Assembly (NCBI GenBank): GCA_019750575.1
Contig: JAIEOJ010000271.1
Location: 1-40,280, forward strand
Origin: Rhodocyclaceae bacterium
Lineage (GTDB): Bacteria; Pseudomonadota; Gammaproteobacteria; Burkholderiales; Rhodocyclaceae
Length of the DNA: 40,280 bases
Reading direction: 5' to 3'
Positions 1,932 through 14,134 of the stretch are shown in pieces. The notes under the pieces were generated by a model that saw nothing but the letters and a program-made list of their open reading frames with translations, was not told the DNA's origin and did not search any database. Every line of letters starts with the position of its first letter. The first letter of the stretch is position 1. The position numbers were made by a program, and so were the translations under genes.

Positions 1932-3092
1932 ATGTACGAAGCCTATTACGGACTGCATAGCAAGCCTTTCCAGCTCAATCCGGACCCGTCCTTCTATTAC
2001 GCCAGCAAGCAGCATCAACGCGCCTCTGCCTATCTCGAATACGGCGTACACCAGAACGAGGGCTTCATCGTCATCACCGGCGAGATCGGTGCGGGCAAGA
2101 CCACCATCGTGCGTGGTCTGCTCGAATCGCTGGATCAGGACAAGCTGGTGGCGGCGCAACTGGTCAGCACCCAGCTCGATGCCGACGATATCCTGCGCAT
2201 GGTCGCTGCCGCCTTCGGCGTGCGCACCGCCGGTACCAGCAAGTCCGATCTGTTGCTCGCGCTGGAGGCCTTTCTCGTCGATGTCGCGCGTCAGGGCAAG
2301 CGCTGCCTGCTGGTCGTCGATGAGGCGCAGAACCTGACCCAGCGCGCGGTCGAAGAGCTGCGCATGCTCTCCAACTTCCAGTTCGAGACGCAGGCGCTGC
2401 TGCAGAGCTTCCTGATCGGCCAGCCCGAATTCCGTGCCATCCTCAACAGTCCGCAGATGCAGCAGCTGAAGCAGCGCGTGATTGCCGCCTGTCATATCGG
2501 TCCGCTCGACCTTGAGGAAACCCGCGGCTATGTGCTGCACCGGCTCAAGTGTGCCGGTGCGACTGACAAGCCGCGCTTTCAGGAAGACGCCTTTCCGGTC
2601 ATCCACCGCGCCAGCGGCGGCATTCCGCGCCGCATCAATGCGCTCTGCGACCGGCTGCTGCTGCTCGGTTTTCTTGGCGAACTGACCCTGTTTTCGCCCA
2701 AGGAAGTGGAAGCGGTGGCCGCCGAACTCAATGACAAGCCTTTTGGGATCAGCGAAACCGGCCTGATGGCGCCCACTGCGATCGATGGCTCCATGGAGGC
2801 TGAGCTGGACAAGCTGGCGCTTGATCTGGATCTCGATGATCTGGAGATGCTTACATTGGACGAGGGCACCGCAGGCGAATTGCGCCAGATGATTTCGTCG
2901 GCACGCATGCGCCGCGATGAAGAGCTTCTGAGTCGTATCGAGCGCAGCTTGCTGCGCATCGAGCGTGGTCAATCAATGATGTTGAATCTCCTGCAAAGAC
3001 TGGTCCATGCGGCGCGTCCGCCAGAAGTCTCCGGCAAGGCCGCGCGCGAGGAACGACGTCGCCCCCGCGACAAGTCGGAGGAACGCAAATGA
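1932..3092 (+). CDS. XrtA-associated ExeA/GspA-like ATPase
   Basis: 386 residues. The N-terminus MYEAYYGLHSKPFQLNPDP is typical of the ExeA/GspA AAA family. Walker A is GEIGAGKTT (residues 50-58) and Walker B CLLVVDEAQ (125-133), followed by a sensor-like SNFQFETQALLQ segment. After about residue 270 comes an acidic stretch (LDLDLDDLEMLTLDE), a likely coiled coil (about 315-355) and a very basic tail. This matches the exosortase-locus ATPase family (TIGR03015-like). In secretion systems ExeA couples ATP hydrolysis to assembly of envelope structures; a similar role for the polysaccharide apparatus is inferred. No transmembrane helix is obvious, so it is probably cytoplasmic or peripheral. It overlaps the next gene by 4 bp (ATGA). 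Confidence 0.88.
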   Translation: MYEAYYGLHSKPFQLNPDPSFYYASKQHQRASAYLEYGVHQNEGFIVITGEIGAGKTTIVRGLLESLDQDKLVAAQLVSTQLDADDILRMVAAAFGVRTAGTSKSDLLLALEAFLVDVARQGKRCLLVVDEAQNLTQRAVEELRMLSNFQFETQALLQSFLIGQPEFRAILNSPQMQQLKQRVIAACHIGPLDLEETRGYVLHRLKCAGATDKPRFQEDAFPVIHRASGGIPRRINALCDRLLLLGFLGELTLFSPKEVEAVAAELNDKPFGISETGLMAPTAIDGSMEAELDKLALDLDLDDLEMLTLDEGTAGELRQMISSARMRRDEELLSRIERSLLRIERGQSMMLNLLQRLVHAARPPEVSGKAAREERRRPRDKSEERK

Positions 3093-3937
3093 ACACGATC
3101 ACCAATGCCCTGACCATAGACGTCGAGGATTACTTCCAGGTCTCCGCCTTTGCGCCCTGCATTCCGCGCAGCGAGTGGGACAGCTGCGAATGCCGCGTCG
3201 AGCGCAATGTCGAGCTGATCATGGACATGCTGGATCGTCACGACGTCAAGGCCACTTTCTTTACCCTGGGCTGGATCGCGGAGCGCTATCCGGATCTGGT
3301 GCGCGAAATGGCGCGGCGTGGCCACGAGGTCGCCAGCCACGGCTATGGCCACCAGCGCGCCAGCGATCTGAGTCGCGCCGAATTCCTCGACGACATTACC
3401 CGCGCCAAATCCATCCTGGAAGGGCTGTCCGGCCAGGAAGTGCGCGGCTATCGCGCGCCGAGCTTCTCGATCGGCACCGATAACCAGTGGGCCTTCGACT
3501 GCCTGGTCGAGGCCGGCTATAGCGACAGCTCCAGCGTCTATCCGATCAAGCACGATCACTACGGCATTCCGGATGCACCGCGTTTCATGCACGAGGTGCG
3601 CCCCGGCCTGACCGAAATCCCGCCGACCACCATACGCGCCTTCTCGCGCAACTGGCCGGCCAGCGGCGGCGGCTATTTCCGCCTCATGCCTTACGCCCTG
3701 TCGCGCCAGCTGCTGCGCAAGGTCAATCAGGAAGACCAGGCTGCCGCGGTCTTCTATTTCCATCCCTGGGAAGTGGATCCTGAGCAGCCGCGCGTCGCCG
3801 GCGCCAGCGCCAAGGCGCGCTTCCGCCACTACCTCAACCTGGATCGCATGCAGGCGCGTCTTGACCGCCTGCTCGGCGACTTCAGCTGGGGCCGCATGGA
3901 CCAGGCCTTCTTCAAGGACGCACCGTCCCGCAACTGA
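3089..3937 (+). CDS. XrtA-system polysaccharide deacetylase (NodB/CE4 fold)
   Basis: 282 residues. The NodB domain begins almost at residue 1: TIDVEDYFQ (Asp11, Asp14), then VKATFFTLGWIAERYPDLV, then the metal-binding SHGYGH (His84, His88), and RGYRAPSFS. The opening DVEDYFQ in place of the usual TFDDG is characteristic of the DUF3473-containing exosortase-associated deacetylases (TIGR03006-like). The C-terminal part has YFHPWEVDPEQPR, also typical of that group. It should remove N-acetyl groups from amino sugars of the exopolysaccharide. No signal peptide is visible, so a cytoplasmic site or an unconventional export must be considered. The start overlaps the ATPase stop by 4 bp; the next gene follows after 29 bp. 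Confidence 0.9.
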   Translation: MNTITNALTIDVEDYFQVSAFAPCIPRSEWDSCECRVERNVELIMDMLDRHDVKATFFTLGWIAERYPDLVREMARRGHEVASHGYGHQRASDLSRAEFLDDITRAKSILEGLSGQEVRGYRAPSFSIGTDNQWAFDCLVEAGYSDSSSVYPIKHDHYGIPDAPRFMHEVRPGLTEIPPTTIRAFSRNWPASGGGYFRLMPYALSRQLLRKVNQEDQAAAVFYFHPWEVDPEQPRVAGASAKARFRHYLNLDRMQARLDRLLGDFSWGRMDQAFFKDAPSRN

Positions 3938-5020: not shown

Positions 5021-6223
5021 ATGGCGCGTCTTCTTTACCTCGTGCATCGCCTGCCGTATCCGCCCAACAAGGGCGACAAGGTGCGTTCCTTCCATTTGCT
5101 CAAGCACCTCGCGCGCAGCCATGAAATTCACCTCGGCACCTTCATCGACGATCCGGACGATGCGCAGTACGTCGAGACTGTCCGTGGCTACTGTGCCGGC
5201 CTGCATGTCGAACGTCTCTCGCCACGCCGCGCAAAGCTGCGCAGCCTGTCCGGCCTGATTGCCGGGGAGGCGCTGTCGCTGCCTTACTACCGCAATGCCG
5301 GCATGCAGGCCTGGGTCAGGCAGACACTGGCGCAGCATGCGTTTGATGCTGCCGTCGTGTTTTCCTCGGTGATGGCGCAGTACGTACCGGACGATCTGCC
5401 CAGCCTCGTTGATTTCGTCGATGCCGATTCCGCCAAGTGGGCGGCCTATGCGGAAAACCATCGCTGGCCCATGTCCTGGATCTATCGGCGCGAAGGCCGC
5501 AAGCTGCTGGCGTTCGAACGTCATACCGCTGCGCAGGCGCGCCGCGCTTTTTTCGTGACCCCCGCCGAAGTCGCGCTGTTTATCGATCTCGCACCCGAGT
5601 GCAGGGACGGGGTCGAGTCCATGGGCAACGGGGTCGATGCCGACTTCTTTGCGCCGGCGCATACCGGGGACTCGCCCTATGCCGTGGATGAGCTGCCCAT
5701 CGTGTTTACCGGCGCCATGGACTACTGGCCGAATATCGATGCCGTGTGCTGGTTCGCCGGCGAAGTCCTGCCCGCATTGAAACAGCAATGGCCGCAGCTG
5801 CGCTTTCACATCGTCGGTCGCAGCCCGGCTCCGGCAGTGCAGGCGCTGGCGAGTGAGGCGGTGGTGGTGAGCGGTACCGTGCCCGACGTGCGTCCTTGGC
5901 TGGCGCATGCGGCAGCCGTCGTCGCGCCCCTGCGCGTGGCGCGCGGCGTACAGAACAAGGTGCTTGAAGCCATGGCCATGGGCCGCCCGGTCGTAGCCGC
6001 CAGCGCCTGCACCGTTGCCATCGAGGCCGAACCGGGCCGTGATCTGCTGGCGGCCACTTCCAGCGAGGACTATGTGAACGCCATCAACATGCTGCTCACG
6101 GACAGTCAGCGCGCCGGCGCAATCGGTCGCCACGGGCGTGACTGCGTGCTTGCGCGCTACAGCTGGGATGCCCATCTTGCCGGCATAGACCGCCACCTGC
6201 CGCAGACGGGAGCTCGGGCATGA
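5021..6223 (+). CDS. GT4 glycosyltransferase, XrtA-associated (stp1 type)
   Basis: 400 residues. The N-terminus LLYLVHRLPYPPNKGDKVRSF and the following HEIHLGTFIDDPDD are characteristic of the PEP-CTERM/EpsH1-associated sugar transferase family TIGR03087. A GT-B fold is expected: the nucleotide-sugar-binding half has FTGAMDYWPNIDA (about residue 229), HIVGRSPAPAVQAL, VPDVRPWLAHAAAVVAPLRVARGVQNKVLEAMAMGRPVVA. The conserved Glu lies in KVLEAMAMG. It probably adds one sugar to a lipid-linked repeat unit on the cytoplasmic face of the membrane; donor and acceptor cannot be read from sequence. It starts 10 bp after the FemAB gene and overlaps xrtA by 4 bp. Confidence 0.9.
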   Translation: MARLLYLVHRLPYPPNKGDKVRSFHLLKHLARSHEIHLGTFIDDPDDAQYVETVRGYCAGLHVERLSPRRAKLRSLSGLIAGEALSLPYYRNAGMQAWVRQTLAQHAFDAAVVFSSVMAQYVPDDLPSLVDFVDADSAKWAAYAENHRWPMSWIYRREGRKLLAFERHTAAQARRAFFVTPAEVALFIDLAPECRDGVESMGNGVDADFFAPAHTGDSPYAVDELPIVFTGAMDYWPNIDAVCWFAGEVLPALKQQWPQLRFHIVGRSPAPAVQALASEAVVVSGTVPDVRPWLAHAAAVVAPLRVARGVQNKVLEAMAMGRPVVAASACTVAIEAEPGRDLLAATSSEDYVNAINMLLTDSQRAGAIGRHGRDCVLARYSWDAHLAGIDRHLPQTGARA

Positions 6224-7725
6224 CGCAGACATGGCGCAACAGCCTGGCAGCCCTGCTGCTGGCGCTGCTTCTGGTGGCCGCCACCTACTGGAATACCCTG
6301 AGCGGCATGGTCGCCATCTGGGAGCGTTCCGGCACCTTCACCCATGCCTTCCTGGTGCCGCCGATCAGCCTGTGGCTGGTCTGGCGTCTGCGCGCCTCGC
6401 TGTCGGCCTTCGTGCCGTCACCGGCGCCATGGCTGGCATTGCCGCTGTTCCTGGTCGGCGTCTTGTGGCTGTTCGGTGAGCTGGTGGCAGTCAATGTCGT
6501 CACCCAGTTTGCCCTCGTCTGCATGCTGGTACTCAGCGTACCGCTGCTGCTCGGCCTGCCGGTCGCGCGTGCGATTGCCTTTCCCTTGCTCTTCCTGTTC
6601 TTCTGCGTGCCCTTCGGCGAATTCATCATGCCGCGCCTGATGCAGTGGACCGCCGACATCACGGTGCTGTTCGTGCGTATCTCGGGCGTGCCGGTGTATC
6701 AGGAAGGCCTGCAGTTCGTCATCCCCAGCGGCCGCTGGTCGGTGGTCGAGGCCTGCAGCGGCATCCGCTACCTGATTGCCTCGATCTGCGTCGGCGTGCT
6801 CTTTGCCTACCTCAACTACACATCGTGGAAGCGGCGCGTGCTGTTCGTGATCGCCGCCGCGCTGGTGCCCCTGCTGGCCAACTGGCTGCGCGCCTACGGC
6901 ATCGTCATGCTCGGCCATTTTTCCGGCAACAAGCTCGCCACCGGGGTTGATCATCTCGTCTACGGCTGGGTCTTCTTCGGCATCGTCATGACCCTGCTGT
7001 TCATGCTCGGCATGCGCTGGCAGGAGCCGGAGCGTCTGCCGGTATTCACGCCGCCGCGTGTGACGACCCCGCGCAGCCTGCCGCTGGCCTGGCTGTTGCT
7101 GGCCGCTGCCTTGCTGATCCCGCGTGCCGGTCTGTGGCTGGTGGAGCGCAGCGATGCGGCTGCCGCTCCCGCCCTCAATGCCGCGCGCCTCAACGATATC
7201 GGTGACTGGAAGGGCATCAGCCCCGGCTTCAGCAGCTGGCAGCCAGCCTTTACCCAGCCGGCTGCAAGTTTCCGGCGCAGTTATGTCAGTGCGGACAAGC
7301 AGGCCGCGCTCTACATCGCCTATTACCGCAATCAGGACAGTCAACGCAAACTCGTCAGTTCGGAAAACATGCTGGCAAGAAGCGGCGGTGATTTCTGGGT
7401 CGTGGTTGAACGCGGTACCGCGAATGTCGATGCCCTGACGGTGCGCACGGCCAGCCTGCGCGGCGGCAGCGTGGGCACCGGTGGAGAGCAGCGCCTGCGT
7501 GTGTGGCAGTGGTACTGGGTGGATGGCACGCTGACCGCCAGTGACATCCAGGCCAAGCTGCTGACGCTGAAGGCACGGCTCACAGGGCGTGGCGACGACG
7601 GTGCCATCATCGTGCTGTATGCGCCGGACCAACAGCCGCGCGAAGGTGATGCCGTCTTGTCGGCCTTTGCTCTGGCCGCACGCGAGACGCTCATGTCCGC
7701 ACTGGCACGCACGCGGGAGGAATGA
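6220..7725 (+). CDS. xrtA: Exosortase A with fused EpsI-type domain
   Basis: 501 residues: an N-terminal polytopic domain of about eight helices (to about residue 265) and a C-terminal soluble EpsI-type domain preceded by one more helix (LAWLLLAAALLIP). The transpeptidase-like catalytic triad is readable: Cys179 in VVEACSGIRYL, Arg224 in LLANWLRAYGIV and His245 in GVDHLVYGWVFF. The EpsI part has the expected DWKGISPGF and YYRNQ segments. Exosortases recognise C-terminal PEP-CTERM signals of exported proteins, cleave them and probably transfer the protein to an envelope anchor; neighbouring genes make the glycan. The flanking TIGR03087-, TIGR03088- and TIGR03097-like genes mark this as subtype A (EpsH1). 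ATG 6220 overlaps the upstream stop by 4 bp. Confidence 0.95.
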   Translation: MTQTWRNSLAALLLALLLVAATYWNTLSGMVAIWERSGTFTHAFLVPPISLWLVWRLRASLSAFVPSPAPWLALPLFLVGVLWLFGELVAVNVVTQFALVCMLVLSVPLLLGLPVARAIAFPLLFLFFCVPFGEFIMPRLMQWTADITVLFVRISGVPVYQEGLQFVIPSGRWSVVEACSGIRYLIASICVGVLFAYLNYTSWKRRVLFVIAAALVPLLANWLRAYGIVMLGHFSGNKLATGVDHLVYGWVFFGIVMTLLFMLGMRWQEPERLPVFTPPRVTTPRSLPLAWLLLAAALLIPRAGLWLVERSDAAAAPALNAARLNDIGDWKGISPGFSSWQPAFTQPAASFRRSYVSADKQAALYIAYYRNQDSQRKLVSSENMLARSGGDFWVVVERGTANVDALTVRTASLRGGSVGTGGEQRLRVWQWYWVDGTLTASDIQAKLLTLKARLTGRGDDGAIIVLYAPDQQPREGDAVLSAFALAARETLMSALARTREE

Positions 7726-7744: not shown

Positions 7745-8899
7745 ATGAAGATTCTTTACCATCACCGCACTGCGTCCAAGGACGGGCAAGCGGTACACAT
7801 CGAGGAAATGATCGCGGCCTTGCGCAAGCAGGGCCATGAAGTGCGCGTGGTCGCGCCGGAAGCGGTCGTGGATGGTGCAGGACGGATGGGCGGCGGGGTT
7901 GGCTGGGTGCAGCGCTTGCGCAGCATGTTGCCGAATGCCGTGTACGAGCTGCTGGAGCTGGGCTACAGCGCGATCGCCTATCGACGTCTGCGCGCCGCGG
8001 CCGCGGCGTTCAAGCCGGATCTGATCTACGAGCGTTACAACCTGTTCCTGCTGGCCGGCCTCATGCTCAAGAAGAAGCTCGGCATTCCCCTGCTGCTCGA
8101 GGTTAATGCGCCGCTGGTGCATGAGCGCTCCCTGCATAGTGGTGGCCTTGCGCTCGAGCGCCTGGGGCGCTGGGCCGAGGGCAAGGCCTGGCGCGGTGCC
8201 GATTTCGTGCTGCCGGTTACGCAAGTTTTGGCAGACCATGTGCGCGCCTACGGCGTGCCTGACGAGCGCATCGTCGTCATTCCCAACGGCATCAACGAGG
8301 CGCATTTCGCGGCGGCACCGTTGCCTGAGCAGGCGCGCGCCGAGCGTGGTCTTGCCGGCAAGCTGGTGCTGGGGTTTACCGGTTTCGTGCGCGAATGGCA
8401 CGGCATGGACCGCGTGATCGCGTGGCTGGCCAGCGCCGCCGCACCTGCCAACGCGCACCTGCTGGTGGTGGGCGACGGGCCGGTGCGCGGTGTGCTGGAA
8501 GCGCAGGCGCTGGCGCTGGGTGTTGCCGATCGCGTCACCTTCACTGGCGTCATCCACCGCGACCAGGTGCCGGCCTGGGTCGCCAGCTTCGACATCGCCT
8601 TGCAGCCTGCGGTAGTGGCCTATGCTTCGCCGCTCAAGTTGATGGAATATCTGGCGCTGGGCAAGGCCGTGGTCGCGCCGCGCACGCCGAATCTGTGCGA
8701 GGTACTCACCGATGGCGACAATGCCTTGCTGTTTGATGCCGATGCGCATGGCGCGCTGGAGCATGCGCTGGCGCGCTTGTGCAGCGACACAGCCTTGCGC
8801 ACCCGCTTGGCCGACGGTGCACGTACCAGCATCGTCCGTCAGGGGCTGACCTGGGACAGCAATGCGCGGCGTGTCACCGGACTGCTTGGTACCGCATGA
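7745..8899 (+). CDS. GT4-like glycosyltransferase
   Basis: 384 residues. The frame is open further upstream into xrtA, but homology-like sequence begins at ATG 7745 (MKILYHHRTASKDGQAVHIEEM), 19 bp after the xrtA stop; the extension overlaps xrtA and looks non-coding. It has the GT-B pattern: a Gly-rich acceptor-side loop, VVIPNGINEAHF, LGFTGFVREWHGMDRVI, LLVVGDGPVRG and YASPLKLMEYLALGKAVVAP. In the last motif the first Glu of the usual E-x7-E is replaced by Ser (SPLKLME), a variant known in several GT4 subgroups. It is likely a cytoplasmic sugar transferase in repeat-unit assembly. The sugar is not predictable. The next gene overlaps it by 4 bp. Confidence 0.85.
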   Translation: MKILYHHRTASKDGQAVHIEEMIAALRKQGHEVRVVAPEAVVDGAGRMGGGVGWVQRLRSMLPNAVYELLELGYSAIAYRRLRAAAAAFKPDLIYERYNLFLLAGLMLKKKLGIPLLLEVNAPLVHERSLHSGGLALERLGRWAEGKAWRGADFVLPVTQVLADHVRAYGVPDERIVVIPNGINEAHFAAAPLPEQARAERGLAGKLVLGFTGFVREWHGMDRVIAWLASAAAPANAHLLVVGDGPVRGVLEAQALALGVADRVTFTGVIHRDQVPAWVASFDIALQPAVVAYASPLKLMEYLALGKAVVAPRTPNLCEVLTDGDNALLFDADAHGALEHALARLCSDTALRTRLADGARTSIVRQGLTWDSNARRVTGLLGTA

Positions 8900-10524
8900 A
8901 GCCGGGGATTGCAAAGCACCTGCGGGCCGCTGATCTCATCGCGCTGGCGCTGCTGCTGGCACTCGTGGCGCTGCTGTTCGTGCAGGCGCCGGTCGGCGGT
9001 GCCTTCGCCTGGAGCGATGCGCCGCGGCATGCGCTCAACGGCGTGTTCGTCAAGGATTTTGTTGCGGCCATGCCCTGGGACGACCCGGCGGGCTATGCCT
9101 ATCGTTATTACGCGCAGTATCCGGCGCTGACCATACTGTTCTATCCGCCCCTGTTCTACGTCGTCAGCGCGCCGTTCTATGCGCTGTTCGGCTTCTCCCA
9201 CGGCACGGCCTTGCTCGTCGTTGGCCTGCATTACGCCGCCTTCGCCTGCGCCTGCTATCGCATCTCCCGACGCTGGTTGGATGCGCCGGCCGCCTTCCTG
9301 CTGGCGGCGCTCATTACGGTGCTGCCGGAAATCGCTTTCTGGGGCCGGCAAATCATGCTGGAGATTCCGGCACTGGCCTTCCTCGCGTGGAGCGCCGTCT
9401 GCTTCCTCGAGTACCTCGACGAGCGTCGTCCCCGACATCTCTACCTCGCCGTAGTCCTGCTGGTGCTGGCCATGTACAGCAAGATCAACGTCGGCTTCAT
9501 GGCAATCGCCTATGCCGCGAGCCTGATGCAGGCCCAGGGCGGTGGTGCATGGCGCAATCGCCATCACTATCTGGCGGCATTGGCCGCCGCCATCGCGTTG
9601 CTGCCTTTGCTGCTGCTGACGGTCAAGTTTGGCCAGGCCAATGTGCAATCGGTGACTGGTGTCGCCGATGCCTCTGTGTCGCGCGCCACCCTCGACGGCT
9701 GGTTCTGGTATGCCCGTCAATTGCCCTTGCAGATGGGCTGGCCGGTATTGCCGGTCCTGCTTGGTGGTCTTGCCTTGCTGAGCCGCTCGCCGGCCGGCGA
9801 CCGGCGCGCCCAGCAGTTCTTCCTTGCGCTCTGGTTCGTGAGTGGTTATCTGTTCTTTTCCGCGATAGACCTGAAGGAATCGCGCCATACCGTATTCATC
9901 CTGCCGCCGCTGGTGTTCCTGGGAGCGCTGGGCTTGCGGACGGTGTTGTCCTGCAAGCGCCTGTCGGCTCTGTTGCTGGCCCTGTTGCTGGCGACGCTGA
10001 CATGGACCGTGCTGAAGCGGCCGGTTCATTATGTGGATGGTTATCGCAAGGCGGCCGACAAGGTGGCCGATATGGCGCCGCCGAACAGTGCCGTGCTGTT
10101 TTCCGGCTATCGCGACGGTGCCTTCGTCTTCAATATGCGGGTGCGCGAGGACAGGCGCGATCTGGTGACGGTGCGCGCTGACAAGCTCTTGCTCAAGGTT
10201 GCGGTACGGCGCGAGCTGGGGGTGGAGCAGAAGTCCTATTCGGAAGCCGAAATCGTTCAGATGCTGAACGGGGCCGGCATCCGCTATGTTGTCGCCCAGC
10301 ACGACTTCTGGACCGATCTCGAAGTCATGGCGCGCTTGCAGCGCGTCCTGAATTCGGAACACTTCACCGAGGTGGGGCGTATCGCGACCCAAGCGAACTA
10401 TCCTGTCAGCGACACGCTGCTGGTCATCTACCGCAACAATGCGGCGCTGAGCGGCGCGGCCAAGCGCATGGACATTGACTTGCCCATCATCCAGCGCACC
10501 ATTCCTGCGGGGCGCCCGCAATGA
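8896..10524 (+). CDS. GT-C / GT39-like membrane glycosyltransferase
   Basis: 542 residues from ATG 8896, which overlaps the previous stop by 4 bp; the longer open frame upstream lies inside the GT4 gene. It is polytopic, with about ten to eleven hydrophobic helices. The first periplasmic loop has WSDAPRHALNG, with an acidic residue where ArnT/PMT-like GT-C enzymes place the catalytic Asp, followed by YYAQYPALTILFYPPLFYV. GRQIMLEIPALAFLAWS matches the conserved helix of ArnT/PMT_2 proteins. A soluble C-terminal part (from about residue 380) includes PPNSAVLFSGYRDGAFVFNMR. Such enzymes use polyprenyl-phosphate-linked sugars on the periplasmic side. It could decorate the glycan or glycosylate a protein; the target is unknown. 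Confidence 0.78.
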   Translation: MKPGIAKHLRAADLIALALLLALVALLFVQAPVGGAFAWSDAPRHALNGVFVKDFVAAMPWDDPAGYAYRYYAQYPALTILFYPPLFYVVSAPFYALFGFSHGTALLVVGLHYAAFACACYRISRRWLDAPAAFLLAALITVLPEIAFWGRQIMLEIPALAFLAWSAVCFLEYLDERRPRHLYLAVVLLVLAMYSKINVGFMAIAYAASLMQAQGGGAWRNRHHYLAALAAAIALLPLLLLTVKFGQANVQSVTGVADASVSRATLDGWFWYARQLPLQMGWPVLPVLLGGLALLSRSPAGDRRAQQFFLALWFVSGYLFFSAIDLKESRHTVFILPPLVFLGALGLRTVLSCKRLSALLLALLLATLTWTVLKRPVHYVDGYRKAADKVADMAPPNSAVLFSGYRDGAFVFNMRVREDRRDLVTVRADKLLLKVAVRRELGVEQKSYSEAEIVQMLNGAGIRYVVAQHDFWTDLEVMARLQRVLNSEHFTEVGRIATQANYPVSDTLLVIYRNNAALSGAAKRMDIDLPIIQRTIPAGRPQ

Positions 10525-11678
10525 GCAGAAGCGATACACGCACGCATATCGTGCATGTCGTGAATCGCCTCGGGGTGGGCGGCATGGAGAATGTCGTGAT
10601 CCAGCTGGTGAATGAGTTGCCGCCCGCGCGTTTTCGTCACTCCATCATCGCCATTACCGATGTCATGCCCGACATTGCGGCACGTATCAAGCATGCGGAC
10701 GTCGGTCTCCATGCCTTGGAGAAGGCGCCGGGGCAGGCGTTATGGCGCTATCCGCACATGCATCGCCTGCTGCGTCGCCTGCGGCCTGATGTCTGGCACG
10801 GCTGCAATCTGGCGGCGCTGGAGTTTGCGCCGCTGGCCTGGATGGCCGGTGTGAAGTGGCGTATCCATGCCGAACACGGCCTGGAGATGGATGAGCTGCG
10901 CGGCCGTCAACCGGCCTATCGCTGGCTGCGGCGGCTCTATCGTGGCTGCGTGCATATCTACGTCGCGGTTTCCGCACCGATTGCCGCATATCTGCAGCAA
11001 ACAATCGGTATTCCGCCTGCGCACCTGCGCCTGATTAGCAACGGCGTGGACCTGCAGCGTTTCCGGCCGTGGCGCGCCGGAGATGCCTCGCCTGAGGGCT
11101 TTTCCTTCGATAAAGCCGAGCACTGGGTGGTCGGCACCGTCGGTCGCCAGGAGCCGATCAAGAACCCGTTATTGCTGGTCGATACCTTTATCGATCTGGT
11201 GCATGCCGGCCAGCCCGAAAGCGAGCCACTGCGACTGGCGATGATAGGCGAGGGCAGCCTGCACGACGAGATTGATAACCGCATGCGAGCGGCGGGCCTG
11301 CGCGAGCGGCTGTGGCTGCCGGGCAATCGCAACGATGTCGATGTGATCCTGCGCTGCCTTGACTGCTTCGTTCTGCCTTCGCTTTCCGAAGGCACCTCAT
11401 GCACCCTGCAAGAGGCGCTGGCTTGCGGCCTGCCTGTCGTGGCTACCGATGTCGGCGGCAACCGGGCGACGCTGGGCGATGCCGGGCGCCTGATTCCCAG
11501 CCAGGACCGCGCGGCGCTGCTGGCGGCACTGCAAGCCTGTCGCCATCACCCCGCAGCGGCGCAGGCGGCGCGCGCCCATGCCGAGCAGACGCATGATCTG
11601 AACACGACCCTGCAGGCGTATGCTGAGTTGTTTGAAGGCAGCGATACGGCGCTGCCCATGGCGAAGGAGCGGAGCTGA
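10521..11678 (+). CDS. GT4 glycosyltransferase, XrtA-associated (stp2 type)
   Basis: 385 residues. The opening HIVHVVNRLGVGGMENVV has the Gly-rich loop of GT4 enzymes and, with RFRHSIIAITD, resembles the PEP-CTERM/EpsH1-associated family TIGR03088. Further along are VDLQRFRPW, GTVGRQEPIKNPLLLVDTF, and the donor-binding E-x7-E motif in SLSEGTSCTLQEALACGLPVVATDVGGN. The last segment is a textbook GT4 C-terminal half. The predicted role is addition of one sugar to the exosortase-linked glycan or its lipid carrier in the cytoplasm. It overlaps the GT-C gene by 4 bp and is followed 2 bp later by the small-protein gene. Confidence 0.9.
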   Translation: MSRSDTRTHIVHVVNRLGVGGMENVVIQLVNELPPARFRHSIIAITDVMPDIAARIKHADVGLHALEKAPGQALWRYPHMHRLLRRLRPDVWHGCNLAALEFAPLAWMAGVKWRIHAEHGLEMDELRGRQPAYRWLRRLYRGCVHIYVAVSAPIAAYLQQTIGIPPAHLRLISNGVDLQRFRPWRAGDASPEGFSFDKAEHWVVGTVGRQEPIKNPLLLVDTFIDLVHAGQPESEPLRLAMIGEGSLHDEIDNRMRAAGLRERLWLPGNRNDVDVILRCLDCFVLPSLSEGTSCTLQEALACGLPVVATDVGGNRATLGDAGRLIPSQDRAALLAALQACRHHPAAAQAARAHAEQTHDLNTTLQAYAELFEGSDTALPMAKERS

Positions 11679-11680
11679 CC

Positions 11681-11854
11681 ATGGAAGGATTGTTCTTCCT
11701 TGCCGACATCATTCTGATGCTCCTGCTGGTCCTGGCGATCTTCCGCAGCGAACGCAAGCCGACGTCCGAGGATCTCGGCCTGTTTGCCTACAAGGCTGAC
11801 GACGGGCCTGACCGGCAGGCAGGAGATACAGGGGAGGCTAGCCGCGATGCGTGA
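11681..11854 (+). CDS. 57-residue single-helix membrane protein of unknown function
   Basis: A short gene between the stp2-type transferase and the ligase-like gene. ATG 11681 lies 2 bp after the upstream stop and is preceded by the purine-rich GAAGGAGCGGAG. The product has one strong hydrophobic segment (residues 4-21, LFFLADIILMLLLVLAI), then a positively charged boundary (FRSERKP) and a hydrophilic tail with DLGLFAYKADD. Positive-inside logic suggests the tail is cytoplasmic. Its stop lies 8 bp inside the next gene, so it is packed into the operon as a real gene would be. From memory, XrtA loci often carry a similar short open frame just before the O-ligase with an L-G-L-F motif; this was not checked. 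No function can be assigned. Confidence 0.72.
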   Translation: MEGLFFLADIILMLLLVLAIFRSERKPTSEDLGLFAYKADDGPDRQAGDTGEASRDA

Positions 11855-13169
11855 TCTGGTCCTGCTGGCCGCCATGCTGCTGTTCGTGCCCTTGAGCATG
11901 ACGAATGCCTTCATCGCCTATCTGCTATGCGGCTGGGTGTCGGTGCTGTCGCCGGCCTACTATCTGTACGGCTTCATGGATGATGTGCGTTTCAACCTGA
12001 TTTTCGCAGTCATCACCATCAGCGTCCTGATCGTAGGGCGCGACCGTTTCAAGAACCGGCTCGGCTACGCCAATCCGACGGTGCTGCTGATGCTGCTGTT
12101 CATGGTGCACGGCATCCTCTGCGCGCTGTTCGCCTATCCCGGCAATCCGCTCAACGAAACCCTGGCGATCCAGTTCGTCAAGACGCTGATCTATTGCCTG
12201 CTGGCGCCGCTGCTGTTGACCACACGTTTCCGCCTGCACGCGCTGCTGCTGATGCTGGCGCTGGGACTGGGTTTTCACGGCGTCGTCGAGGGGCTCAAGG
12301 TCATCAAGTCGGCTGGCGGCCATCGGCCGCTTGGTATTCCTTCTTCCATGATGTCGGACAACAACCAGCTCGCGGTTGCCATGGTCATGGCCTTGCCCAT
12401 TTTCTTCTATCTCTACCAGTACTCTCAGCGCAGGCTGGTACGGATTGCCTTTCTCTGCACCATCGCCTTTACTGTCGCCTGCGTACTCGGCACGACTTCG
12501 CGCGGCGGGCTGGTCGGCCTGCTGGCGCTGGCGATCTGGTTTGTGCTGACTTCGCGCCACAAGGTGATGGCGGTTGCTCTCATTACCTGCCTAGCCGTGA
12601 CAACCGTGGCGGTGGCGCCCGAAAACATGTTCAGTCGTGTCAGTACGATGCAGGACATCGAGAACGACAGTTCCTTCATGGGGCGCGTTGCGGCCTGGAA
12701 GATCAGTTCGGCCGTGGCGCTCAATAACCCGTTTTTTGGTGGTGGCTTCCATGCCATCCAGCACACCCCGATCTGGGATTCCTATCGTTACGAGCAGGGC
12801 CTTCTCGGCTGGATCACTACACCGCCGCCGGACGAGCGCGGCAAGGCCGCACACAACATCTTCTTCGAGGTGCTGGGCGACCTCGGCTTTATCGGGTTAG
12901 CCTTGTTCTGTCTCCTGTTCCTCAACGCTTTCCGTGCGCGTGCCGAGGTGCGGCGCATGACGCGGGATGGCCGCTGGCTATGGGCACGCGACATGTCTGA
13001 TATGCTTTTTCTCTCCATCTTCGCCTACATGATTTCCGGCTCGGCGGTCAGCATGGCGTATTTCGAGCCGTTCTATGTGATCCTGATGGCCATGGAGATG
13101 CTGCGTCAGTGGGTGCGACATGAGTCTCGGCAACTGGCGGAGAAACCCGGCCCGAAGGAGGAGCCATGA
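11847..13169 (+). CDS. O-antigen-ligase-like (WaaL/Wzy_C) protein, XrtA-associated
   Basis: 440 residues from ATG 11847, which has GGGGAGG ten bases upstream; the open frame extends 5' but without a better start. It is a polytopic membrane protein with about ten to twelve helices. MRDLVLLAAMLLFVPLSMTNAFIAYLLCGWVSVLSP is the signature N-terminus of the exosortase A-associated O-glycosylation ligase family (TIGR03097-like). The Wzy_C features follow: MMSDNNQLAVAMVMALP, GTTSRGGLVGLLALA, the periplasmic loop with FFGGGFHAIQ, and AHNIFFEVLGDLGFIGLALF. It is predicted to transfer or polymerise undecaprenyl-linked glycans in the periplasm, either as polymerase of the exopolysaccharide or as ligase onto a protein. 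It overlaps both neighbours (8 bp and 4 bp). Confidence 0.88.
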   Translation: MRDLVLLAAMLLFVPLSMTNAFIAYLLCGWVSVLSPAYYLYGFMDDVRFNLIFAVITISVLIVGRDRFKNRLGYANPTVLLMLLFMVHGILCALFAYPGNPLNETLAIQFVKTLIYCLLAPLLLTTRFRLHALLLMLALGLGFHGVVEGLKVIKSAGGHRPLGIPSSMMSDNNQLAVAMVMALPIFFYLYQYSQRRLVRIAFLCTIAFTVACVLGTTSRGGLVGLLALAIWFVLTSRHKVMAVALITCLAVTTVAVAPENMFSRVSTMQDIENDSSFMGRVAAWKISSAVALNNPFFGGGFHAIQHTPIWDSYRYEQGLLGWITTPPPDERGKAAHNIFFEVLGDLGFIGLALFCLLFLNAFRARAEVRRMTRDGRWLWARDMSDMLFLSIFAYMISGSAVSMAYFEPFYVILMAMEMLRQWVRHESRQLAEKPGPKEEP

Positions 13170-14134
13170 TCGAACTTGTGCTGCGTAGCTTGAGTCGCGA
13201 GAAGCTGTCCATATTCCTGTTTCACAAGATTCCACTGGCGGCTTCGCCGTTGGCCCCCTACGATCTGCCCTACGTCGATTTCCTGCGCTTGCTTGATTAT
13301 GTGGCGGCGCATTTCAAGGTGCTTCCCCTGGACGAGGCAGTTGCTTTGCTGGAGAGCGGAAAACTGCCGCCCGGCGTTGCCTGTCTGACCTTCGACGACG
13401 GCTACAACGGCTGGGTCGAGCATGTCATGCCTGCACTACTGGCGCGCGACCAGCATGCCACCTTCTTCGTTACCACTGGCCAGTTCTCGGGCCGGCCGAT
13501 GTGGCACGAAAGAGTAGAGCAGGCCCTGTCACGCCTGCCCCTGGGTAGCCTTCGGCTTGCTGATACTGAACTCGATACTTTCGAAATTTTCGATGAAGCC
13601 GCGCGTCAGCATAGCCTCCGTCGTATTGAGCAGTATTTGAAATATCTGCCGCTGACGCGTCGCGAGCAATTGATCGAATACTTGGAAGAGCTCTCTGGCG
13701 TGCGACCGGAGTCTCTGAGTCTGATGCTGGCTGACGATGTGCGCGCCTTGCATGCGAAGGGATTTTCGATTGGCGCTCATACTATCAACCATCCCATACT
13801 GACGCTGTGCAGTGATGATGAGGCTCGCCACGAAATTGGTGCTGCACGGGAAGAGCTTTCCGCCATGATCAATGGGTCGATTACCGGCTTCGCCTATCCG
13901 AATGGCCGGCCGGCGCAGGACTTCAACGAACGCCATGTGCGGCTGGTCAGAGAAGCCGGCTACAAATACGCCGTCACCACCCAGTGGGGCGCTGCGACCC
14001 CGCAGACTTCCCGGCTGCAAATCCCGCGCTTCACGCCCTGGGGGCCGGGTCGCCTCAAAATGAGTTATCAGCTCGCGCGCAACTACCTGCTGCCGGGCAA
14101 GACCCTGGGCATTACGGAATCGGTACTGGTGTGA
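13166..14134 (+). CDS. Polysaccharide deacetylase (CE4) no. 2
   Basis: 322 residues. NodB motifs are in order: LTFDDGYNGW (Asp77, Asp78), QHATFFVTTGQF, the metal-binding SIGAHTINHP (His205, His209) and FAYPNGRPAQDF. A long insert between TTGQF and AHTINH (about residues 110-200) probably forms a helical cap. No signal peptide is visible. It should hydrolyse N- or O-acetyl groups of a saccharide; the acceptor is unknown. It overlaps the ligase gene by 4 bp. The central part (about 13560-13870) looks richer in A and T than its neighbours, which may mark a different history. Confidence 0.87.
   Translation: MIELVLRSLSREKLSIFLFHKIPLAASPLAPYDLPYVDFLRLLDYVAAHFKVLPLDEAVALLESGKLPPGVACLTFDDGYNGWVEHVMPALLARDQHATFFVTTGQFSGRPMWHERVEQALSRLPLGSLRLADTELDTFEIFDEAARQHSLRRIEQYLKYLPLTRREQLIEYLEELSGVRPESLSLMLADDVRALHAKGFSIGAHTINHPILTLCSDDEARHEIGAAREELSAMINGSITGFAYPNGRPAQDFNERHVRLVREAGYKYAVTTQWGAATPQTSRLQIPRFTPWGPGRLKMSYQLARNYLLPGKTLGITESVLV

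Follow-up and report, generated by a model that had tools for sequence, protein, structure and literature searches.

An exosortase A (XrtA) locus in the window, as we call the whole stretch of 40,280 nucleotides analysed here, holds a frame of only 57 residues between two large genes, one for an stp2-type glycosyltransferase and one for a putative ligase. Is this short frame a real gene, and if so, with which of the large enzymes of the locus would its product work? The sequence-only reading of the stretch had taken it for a single-helix membrane protein gene and had suggested a subunit or regulator of either the ligase or the exosortase. The surroundings form a full XrtA locus: matches to TIGR03016, TIGR03015, TIGR03006, TIGR03019 and TIGR03087 lie upstream together with XrtA, each above its cut-off, and XrtA, stp1, FemAB, the ATPase, the deacetylase and TIGR03016, six in all, were found at such scores. 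The features on which the argument draws are the following.

6220–7725, + strand: exosortase A (XrtA) with an EpsI domain, same locus (TIGR03109, 346.3 bits, cut-off 208)
10521–11678, + strand: upstream stp2-type glycosyltransferase (TIGR03088-like, 389.2 bits, just below the cut-off of 409.05)
11664–11674, + strand: ribosome-binding region of the small gene (AAGGAG at 11664–11669, GGAG at 11671–11674; read directly from the sequence)
11681–11854, + strand: small single-helix membrane protein gene, 57 aa (conservation, selection, family profile)
11684–11686, + strand: codon 2, for the conserved acidic residue E2 (an E or a D in most of the family; weighted E 0.77, D 0.19)
11690–11746, + strand: transmembrane helix, about residues 4–22, predicted N-out/C-in (hydropathy; K/R flank counts)
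11705–11707, + strand: codon of D9, a polar residue within the helix (weighted D 0.47, N 0.10)
11771–11791, + strand: DLGLFAY tail motif, lineage-specific (crude pattern: 32 of 85 members with, 53 without)
11831–11837, + strand: GGGGAGG, likely ligase ribosome site, within the 3′-terminal part of the small gene (direct reading)
11847–11854, + strand: 8 bp shared by the end of the small gene and the start of the ligase, ATGCGTGA (direct reading)
11847–13169, + strand: partner ligase, TIGR03097 / DUF5935 + Wzy_C (NCBIfam/Pfam; WaaL fold from the model of the relative L177)

Layout of the small gene

Re-reading the sequence left the coordinates, length, frame and start of the 57-aa frame as first described, and the ribosome site, 2-bp spacing, 8-bp overlap and single helix ascribed to it were all confirmed. 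The frame, which translates to MEGLFFLADIILMLLLVLAIFRSERKPTSEDLGLFAYKADDGPDRQAGDTGEASRDA, begins with an ATG at 11681, two bases after the end of the stp2-type gene at 11678, with GGAG 6 nt 5′ of this ATG and AAGGAG farther upstream. At its other end it overlaps the ligase ATG at 11847, and the putative ligase ribosome site falls within the last codons of the small gene. A mechanical list of open reading frames carries the ligase back to a TTG at 11784, overlapping much of the small gene; as most ligase relatives begin MRD, the ligase start is likely 11847 and not this TTG. The 8-bp overlap is not special in itself because ATGCGTGA is a common start of TIGR03097 ligases: in 25 of 132 TIGR03097 loci that lack the small gene (L010, L031 and L121, for example), an upstream frame of at least 150 aa overlaps the ligase start in the same way. 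A promoter scan of 10400–13300 found none, with 0.7 expected by chance.

A conserved family of single-helix proteins

A genome of the same genus (G001) carries the small gene at the same place, matching the window protein at 63% over residues 1–41 and 56% in another alignment, and so do five genomes of genus g80 as well as g68 and g59. With the last three codons excluded, the comparison between the window and G001 gave a dS of 1.37 and a dN of 0.33 (dN/dS 0.24). Across 18 disjoint pairs of relatives, among which no member is shared, pN was below pS in all 18 and the pooled pN/pS was 0.31, a value that gives direction and not an exact rate as the synonymous distances are in many cases close to saturation. 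For the ligases of these pairs the value was 0.26, and the small-gene DNA of the pairs read in two shifted frames gave 0.99 and 1.76. Pooling 23 distinct pairs, with L114 and L223 counted once as they are one contig, again resulted in 0.31. This comparison of synonymous with non-synonymous change, which the sequence-only reading had proposed as a check, bears out its view of the frame: conservation at the same site and purifying selection at the protein level together indicate that the small gene is real.

How far the gene extends was followed in two samples. The first comprised 150 TIGR03097 ligase loci of the window's family and order, and inspection of their upstream regions gave 18 with the small gene and 132 without. 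The second was drawn from named-genome relatives of 13 ligases of the small-gene class, with the ligase alignment as the query and the small gene no part of the selection, and consisted of the best 80 of at least 553 stretches encoding such relatives. Within these best 80, a small one-helix frame lies upstream on the same strand in 75, its stop placed anywhere from 185 bases before the ligase to 8 bases into it; one locus has it in frame with the ligase (L186), three have it divergent (L229, L237, L248) and one downstream (L247). Six of the 80 are contigs already present in the first sample (L172, L174, L175, L180, L215, L223), and L193 and L194 encode an identical small protein; duplicates and the six repeat contigs were excluded from the family alignment of 86 members.

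A profile of these 86 members had no match at the site in the 132 TIGR03097 loci of the first sample that lack the gene, and its matches away from the site in three of them (L007, L018, L122) were at chance level (E > 2). When similarity clusters were left out in turn, 66 of 68 held-out members were the best match at their site in 0.98 Mb, 62 of them with E ≤ 0.01; L228 (Acidobacteriia) was not recovered, and the best match of L188 was off site. A simple ORF rule (an acidic residue at position 2 or 3, a hydrophobic stretch, and both ends of the frame close to the ligase), the threshold of which was chosen after the data had been seen, passes 86 of 98 loci of the class, 6 of these 98 being contigs counted twice, versus 1 of the 132 others (L065, not matched by the profile). 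In its loosest form the rule admits a hydrophobic upstream frame in 19 of the 132 loci without the small gene, so that single cases need the profile. The similar short frame that had been expected at this position in related loci is therefore a feature of one ligase class, and is missing from the 132 other loci. On these comparisons, the small gene belongs to a family of single-helix proteins of 26–81 aa encoded beside TIGR03097-type, WaaL-fold ligases.

Whole-genome searches with the profile gave matches below E 1e-5 in G000, G001, the five g80 genomes, one g68 genome, two g59 genomes, G296, G1108 and G299. The first twelve of these adjoin a ligase of this class, and the G299 contig ends within the first residues of the ligase. 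Such searches are insensitive for so short a protein, as members in G510, G538, G566 and G617 were not reported by one.

Members share a core, M-[E/D]-x-L-L-[F/L], followed by the helix and then by K/R and D/E. Residue 2 is acidic in most members, and residue 9, which lies within the helix, is D or N in roughly half of the weighted sequences. The C-terminal flank of the helix contains K or R in 84 of 86 members and the N-terminal flank in 2, which predicts an N-out/C-in topology. The whole protein is only 27–30 aa long in Haliea salexigens, Vibrio salinus and Photobacterium aphoticum. The LGLFAY tail of the window protein, which had been singled out in the sequence-only reading, did not hold as a family signature: in its general form, G-[LFW]-F-x-[YF], the motif changes 6 times on the tree and is lineage-specific, and by alignment the helix is the family core. 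No family matched the window protein in Pfam at E ≤ 10 or in NCBIfam, and three members had no match in PHROGs. Searches of 40 members against family databases gave single weak matches (movement-protein p6, FERM_f0, YniD and PP0621), each for 1 of the 40. By sequence against the PDB, the small-protein alignment had one match, at E 0.54.

Several members stand out for their host or setting. Culturable bacteria with the small gene and its ligase include Massilia sp. Leaf139, a Rhodoferax sp. and Pseudorhodoferax soli DSM 21634. The moved but kept copies come, by record title, from Sneathiellales (L229), Caulobacter (L237), Alphaproteobacteria (L248) and Caulobacteraceae (L247); in the first three the profile match is divergent from the ligase, on the other strand, and in the last it follows the ligase on the strand of the latter (E 9e-8 to 7e-5). 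In the in-frame case, L186:5809-7344 from a Hydrogenophaga metagenome-assembled genome, the tail contains a short tandem duplication, and the small gene then continues into the ligase. We downgraded it as a true evolved fusion, since this duplication, seen by eye, accounts for the read-through; L186 is a draft metagenome assembly, and the in-frame join may have arisen recently or may be erroneous. Plasmid plas1 of Vibrio alfacsensis (L266) bears a PEP-CTERM-type polysaccharide locus with PrsK, PrsR, a TIGR03097-named ligase and, at 8852–8941, a small frame of 29 aa. This family-type frame falls in an 86-bp gap before the ligase that has no gene in the PLSDB table (stated to be incomplete), which makes it the one case found for the earlier remark that the gene is short enough to be missed by gene callers. 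On another Vibrio alfacsensis plasmid (NZ_CP032095.1, 125443–126728), the ligase is annotated in two pieces, O-antigen ligase family and DUF5935.

One class of partner ligase

The gene downstream of the small gene matches TIGR03097 with 321 bits over residues 2–423, above the NCBIfam cut-off of 188.1, and the Pfam families DUF5935 and Wzy_C. It is thus a member of the family named ‘putative O-glycosylation ligase, exosortase A system-associated’. By that name the large partner is a putative ligase, and it may be a ligase or a polymerase. The TIGR03097 model excludes the small protein, which we saw with one class of these ligases only.

In a ligase tree of 70 rows (18 with the small gene and 52 without, the latter being the 25 lowest-scoring of the 132 plus every fourth), the 18 make up one side of a branch with an SH-aLRT support of 97, an arrangement reached in 0 of 500 shuffles; the tree has one very long branch, L047, outside this group. 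A FastTree tree of 133 rows, with 90 carriers, 43 of the 132 others and L047 left out, again placed the carriers on one branch (support 99). On both ligase trees, the presence of the small gene is therefore a single change. The class also differs in the ligase itself: the columns of window-ligase residues 314–323 are filled in 90–94% of 98 class rows versus 0–2% of the 132 others. This insertion precedes the conserved histidine 336 of the window ligase, and E148 and K151 are class-specific. By alignment, ligases with the small gene thus form a distinct class under one family name. Several genomes have a second TIGR03097 copy, and these copies (L075, L124–L129) group on a deep branch of their own; G072 has four matches to the model on different contigs.

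The fold was assessed on an AlphaFold model of the L177 ligase, a relative of the window ligase. Against WaaL (7tpg), this model gave a Foldseek E of 1.2e-6 and a VIA Z of 20.5 with 366 residues aligned and an rmsd of 5.2; a sequence search of the PDB with the ligase alignment had no match at E ≤ 0.01. In the modelled read-through chain of the L177 small protein and ligase (pTM 0.88), the helix has a pLDDT of 92–95, also 94 for the helix alone, and the linker falls to 34. The WaaL alignment begins at model residue 73, which leaves nothing in the solved WaaL chain to correspond to the small helix.

The window XrtA locus has two polysaccharide deacetylases, one TIGR03006-type (3089–3937) and one PF01522-type directly after the ligase (13166–14134). 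The latter arrangement is present in loci of both ligase classes. We rejected this downstream deacetylase as a part of the module, as a long homologue comes immediately after the ligase in 14 of 20 other-class loci versus 30 of 79 loci of this class.

A probable ligase subunit

Overall, these data suggest a model in which the small gene encodes a one-helix inner-membrane protein that is probably an accessory subunit of the adjoining ligase class; the physical contact between the two is what we infer. The model draws on conservation at the protein level, inheritance with one ligase class and persistence after rearrangement. Like an accessory subunit, the small gene is encoded and inherited with one large membrane enzyme. 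Tightly packed subunits often show a conserved face, and for the small helix such a face was not significant (permutation p 0.48). If the topology predicted from charge is correct, the few N-terminal residues would face the periplasm and the basic tail would stay cytoplasmic. The helix would then lie beside the WaaL-fold enzyme, a ligase (or polymerase) by which lipid-carried polysaccharide is joined in the exopolysaccharide loci of exosortase A, and would stabilize or complete this class of enzyme. Where the tail carries G-[LFW]-F-x-[YF], it may contact a cytoplasmic or membrane-surface partner, for example a glycosyltransferase. Very short one-helix subunits encoded beside large membrane enzymes include CydX and KdpF, for which contact is proven. 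Their enzymes are unrelated to the ligase, and the likeness lies in the single helix, the very short length and the place beside a large enzyme, whereas contact is predicted here.

An action outside the ligase itself is unlikely, although it would fit part of the evidence. The helix would then anchor the basic tail in order to bring a glycosyltransferase or a Wzc-like chain-length kinase to the ligase. Both the basic, predicted cytoplasmic C-terminal tail and the tail motif of part of the family suit such recruitment, as does the precedent of RmpD from Klebsiella pneumoniae. RmpD is described as a protein of 49–58 aa with one N-terminal helix and a cytoplasmic C terminus with conserved positive charges, which binds Wzc and sets chain length in surface polysaccharide assembly (PMC10294653). 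Compared by these descriptions, RmpD differs from the small protein in its binding of Wzc and in the position of its gene, which belongs to the rmpADC locus and does not adjoin a ligase. However, many family members have a short tail, with 27–30 aa in total, and keep the helix. The large upstream gene also differs between loci, so that no fixed glycosyltransferase partner is seen, and the small gene follows the ligase class.

That the protein serves the exosortase, as its regulator or subunit or in the sorting of PEP-CTERM proteins, is very unlikely, even though the window locus is a full XrtA locus and a TIGR02602 exosortase was found in 19 of 20 genomes tested that have the pair of small gene and ligase. 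Other classes of exosortase-associated ligase do without the gene, as seen from the 132 loci without a profile match at the site and from 20 other-class ligase loci (20 kb each, loci only), in which no match of the full profile fell below E 0.88. In Caulobacter sp. AP07, which carries the pair, no exosortase was detected at E ≤ 1e-10, and in the window the exosortase gene does not adjoin the small gene. As the small gene goes with one ligase class (90 of the 133 tree rows, one change), is missing at the 132 other sites and in these 20 stretches, and occurs in one genome without an exosortase, the ligase is supported over the exosortase as the partner. Of the two roles that the sequence-only reading had left side by side, the link to the ligase is thus favoured by this class linkage and that to the exosortase is not, with a physical subunit role as our proposal.

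We consider it still less probable, indeed highly improbable, that the frame has no other role than to set ligase translation, as a leader peptide or translation-coupling device. Its overlap with the ligase start by 8 or 4 bp is frequent, and in the window it holds the ligase ribosome site. However, selection acts on the small gene at the protein level, and its stop may overlap the ligase start by 8 bp or precede it by as much as 185 bp. Relative to the ligase, each of the three frames is used (in 23, 35 and 27 of 85, a count that includes one contig twice), and the gene is kept as a protein on the opposite strand in L229, L237 and L248 and downstream in L247. As it is kept when moved or turned round and in every relative frame, the small gene would act as a protein. 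An RNA leader was rejected as well: a search of 11500–12100 gave two matches to known RNA families, both far below their gathering scores.

DltX (PF12459) resembles the small protein in having about 50 aa and one helix and in being the first gene of an envelope-polymer operon, and differs from it in its termini and tyrosine: the N terminus of DltX is basic, its C terminus is predicted to lie outside and its tyrosine is invariant (PMC5541007). A DltX-like carrier, in which a tail tyrosine would pass an acyl or sugar group between enzymes, is barely credible despite the shared small one-helix form in an envelope-polymer operon and a match of 1 of 40 members to Pfam DltX, and we rejected kinship with DltX: this match (E 0.035) is not significant and three tail-bearing members had none on rescanning, the flank charges are reversed so that the predicted topology is opposite, and many members have F in place of the tyrosine or lack it.

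No account of the small protein was found among the open-licence papers listed on exosortase, O-antigen ligase, DUF5935 and small membrane proteins; the available part of PMC10903887 makes no mention of ‘exosortase’ or ‘O-antigen’, and that of PMC12004945 none of ‘small protein’, ‘accessory’ or ‘subunit’. Very small accessory membrane proteins are a known kind; none linked to a class of WaaL-fold ligases was seen among these papers.

Enzymes that polymerize or attach surface polysaccharides are usually described as single proteins, chain-length regulators excepted. Carrying the subunit model further, we put forward, as a tentative but plausible proposal, a two-component class of WaaL/Wzy enzymes, in which the large protein with the 314–323 insertion would work only with a separate helix of as few as 26–30 residues. 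This helix, with its polar position 9, would complete or gate the ligase, and it would have been kept through Alpha-, Beta- and Gammaproteobacteria while often being too short for annotation. If one class does need so tiny and easily unannotated a partner, attempts at expression or reconstitution, or models of exosortase exopolysaccharide in flocs and biofilms, would fail without the small protein.
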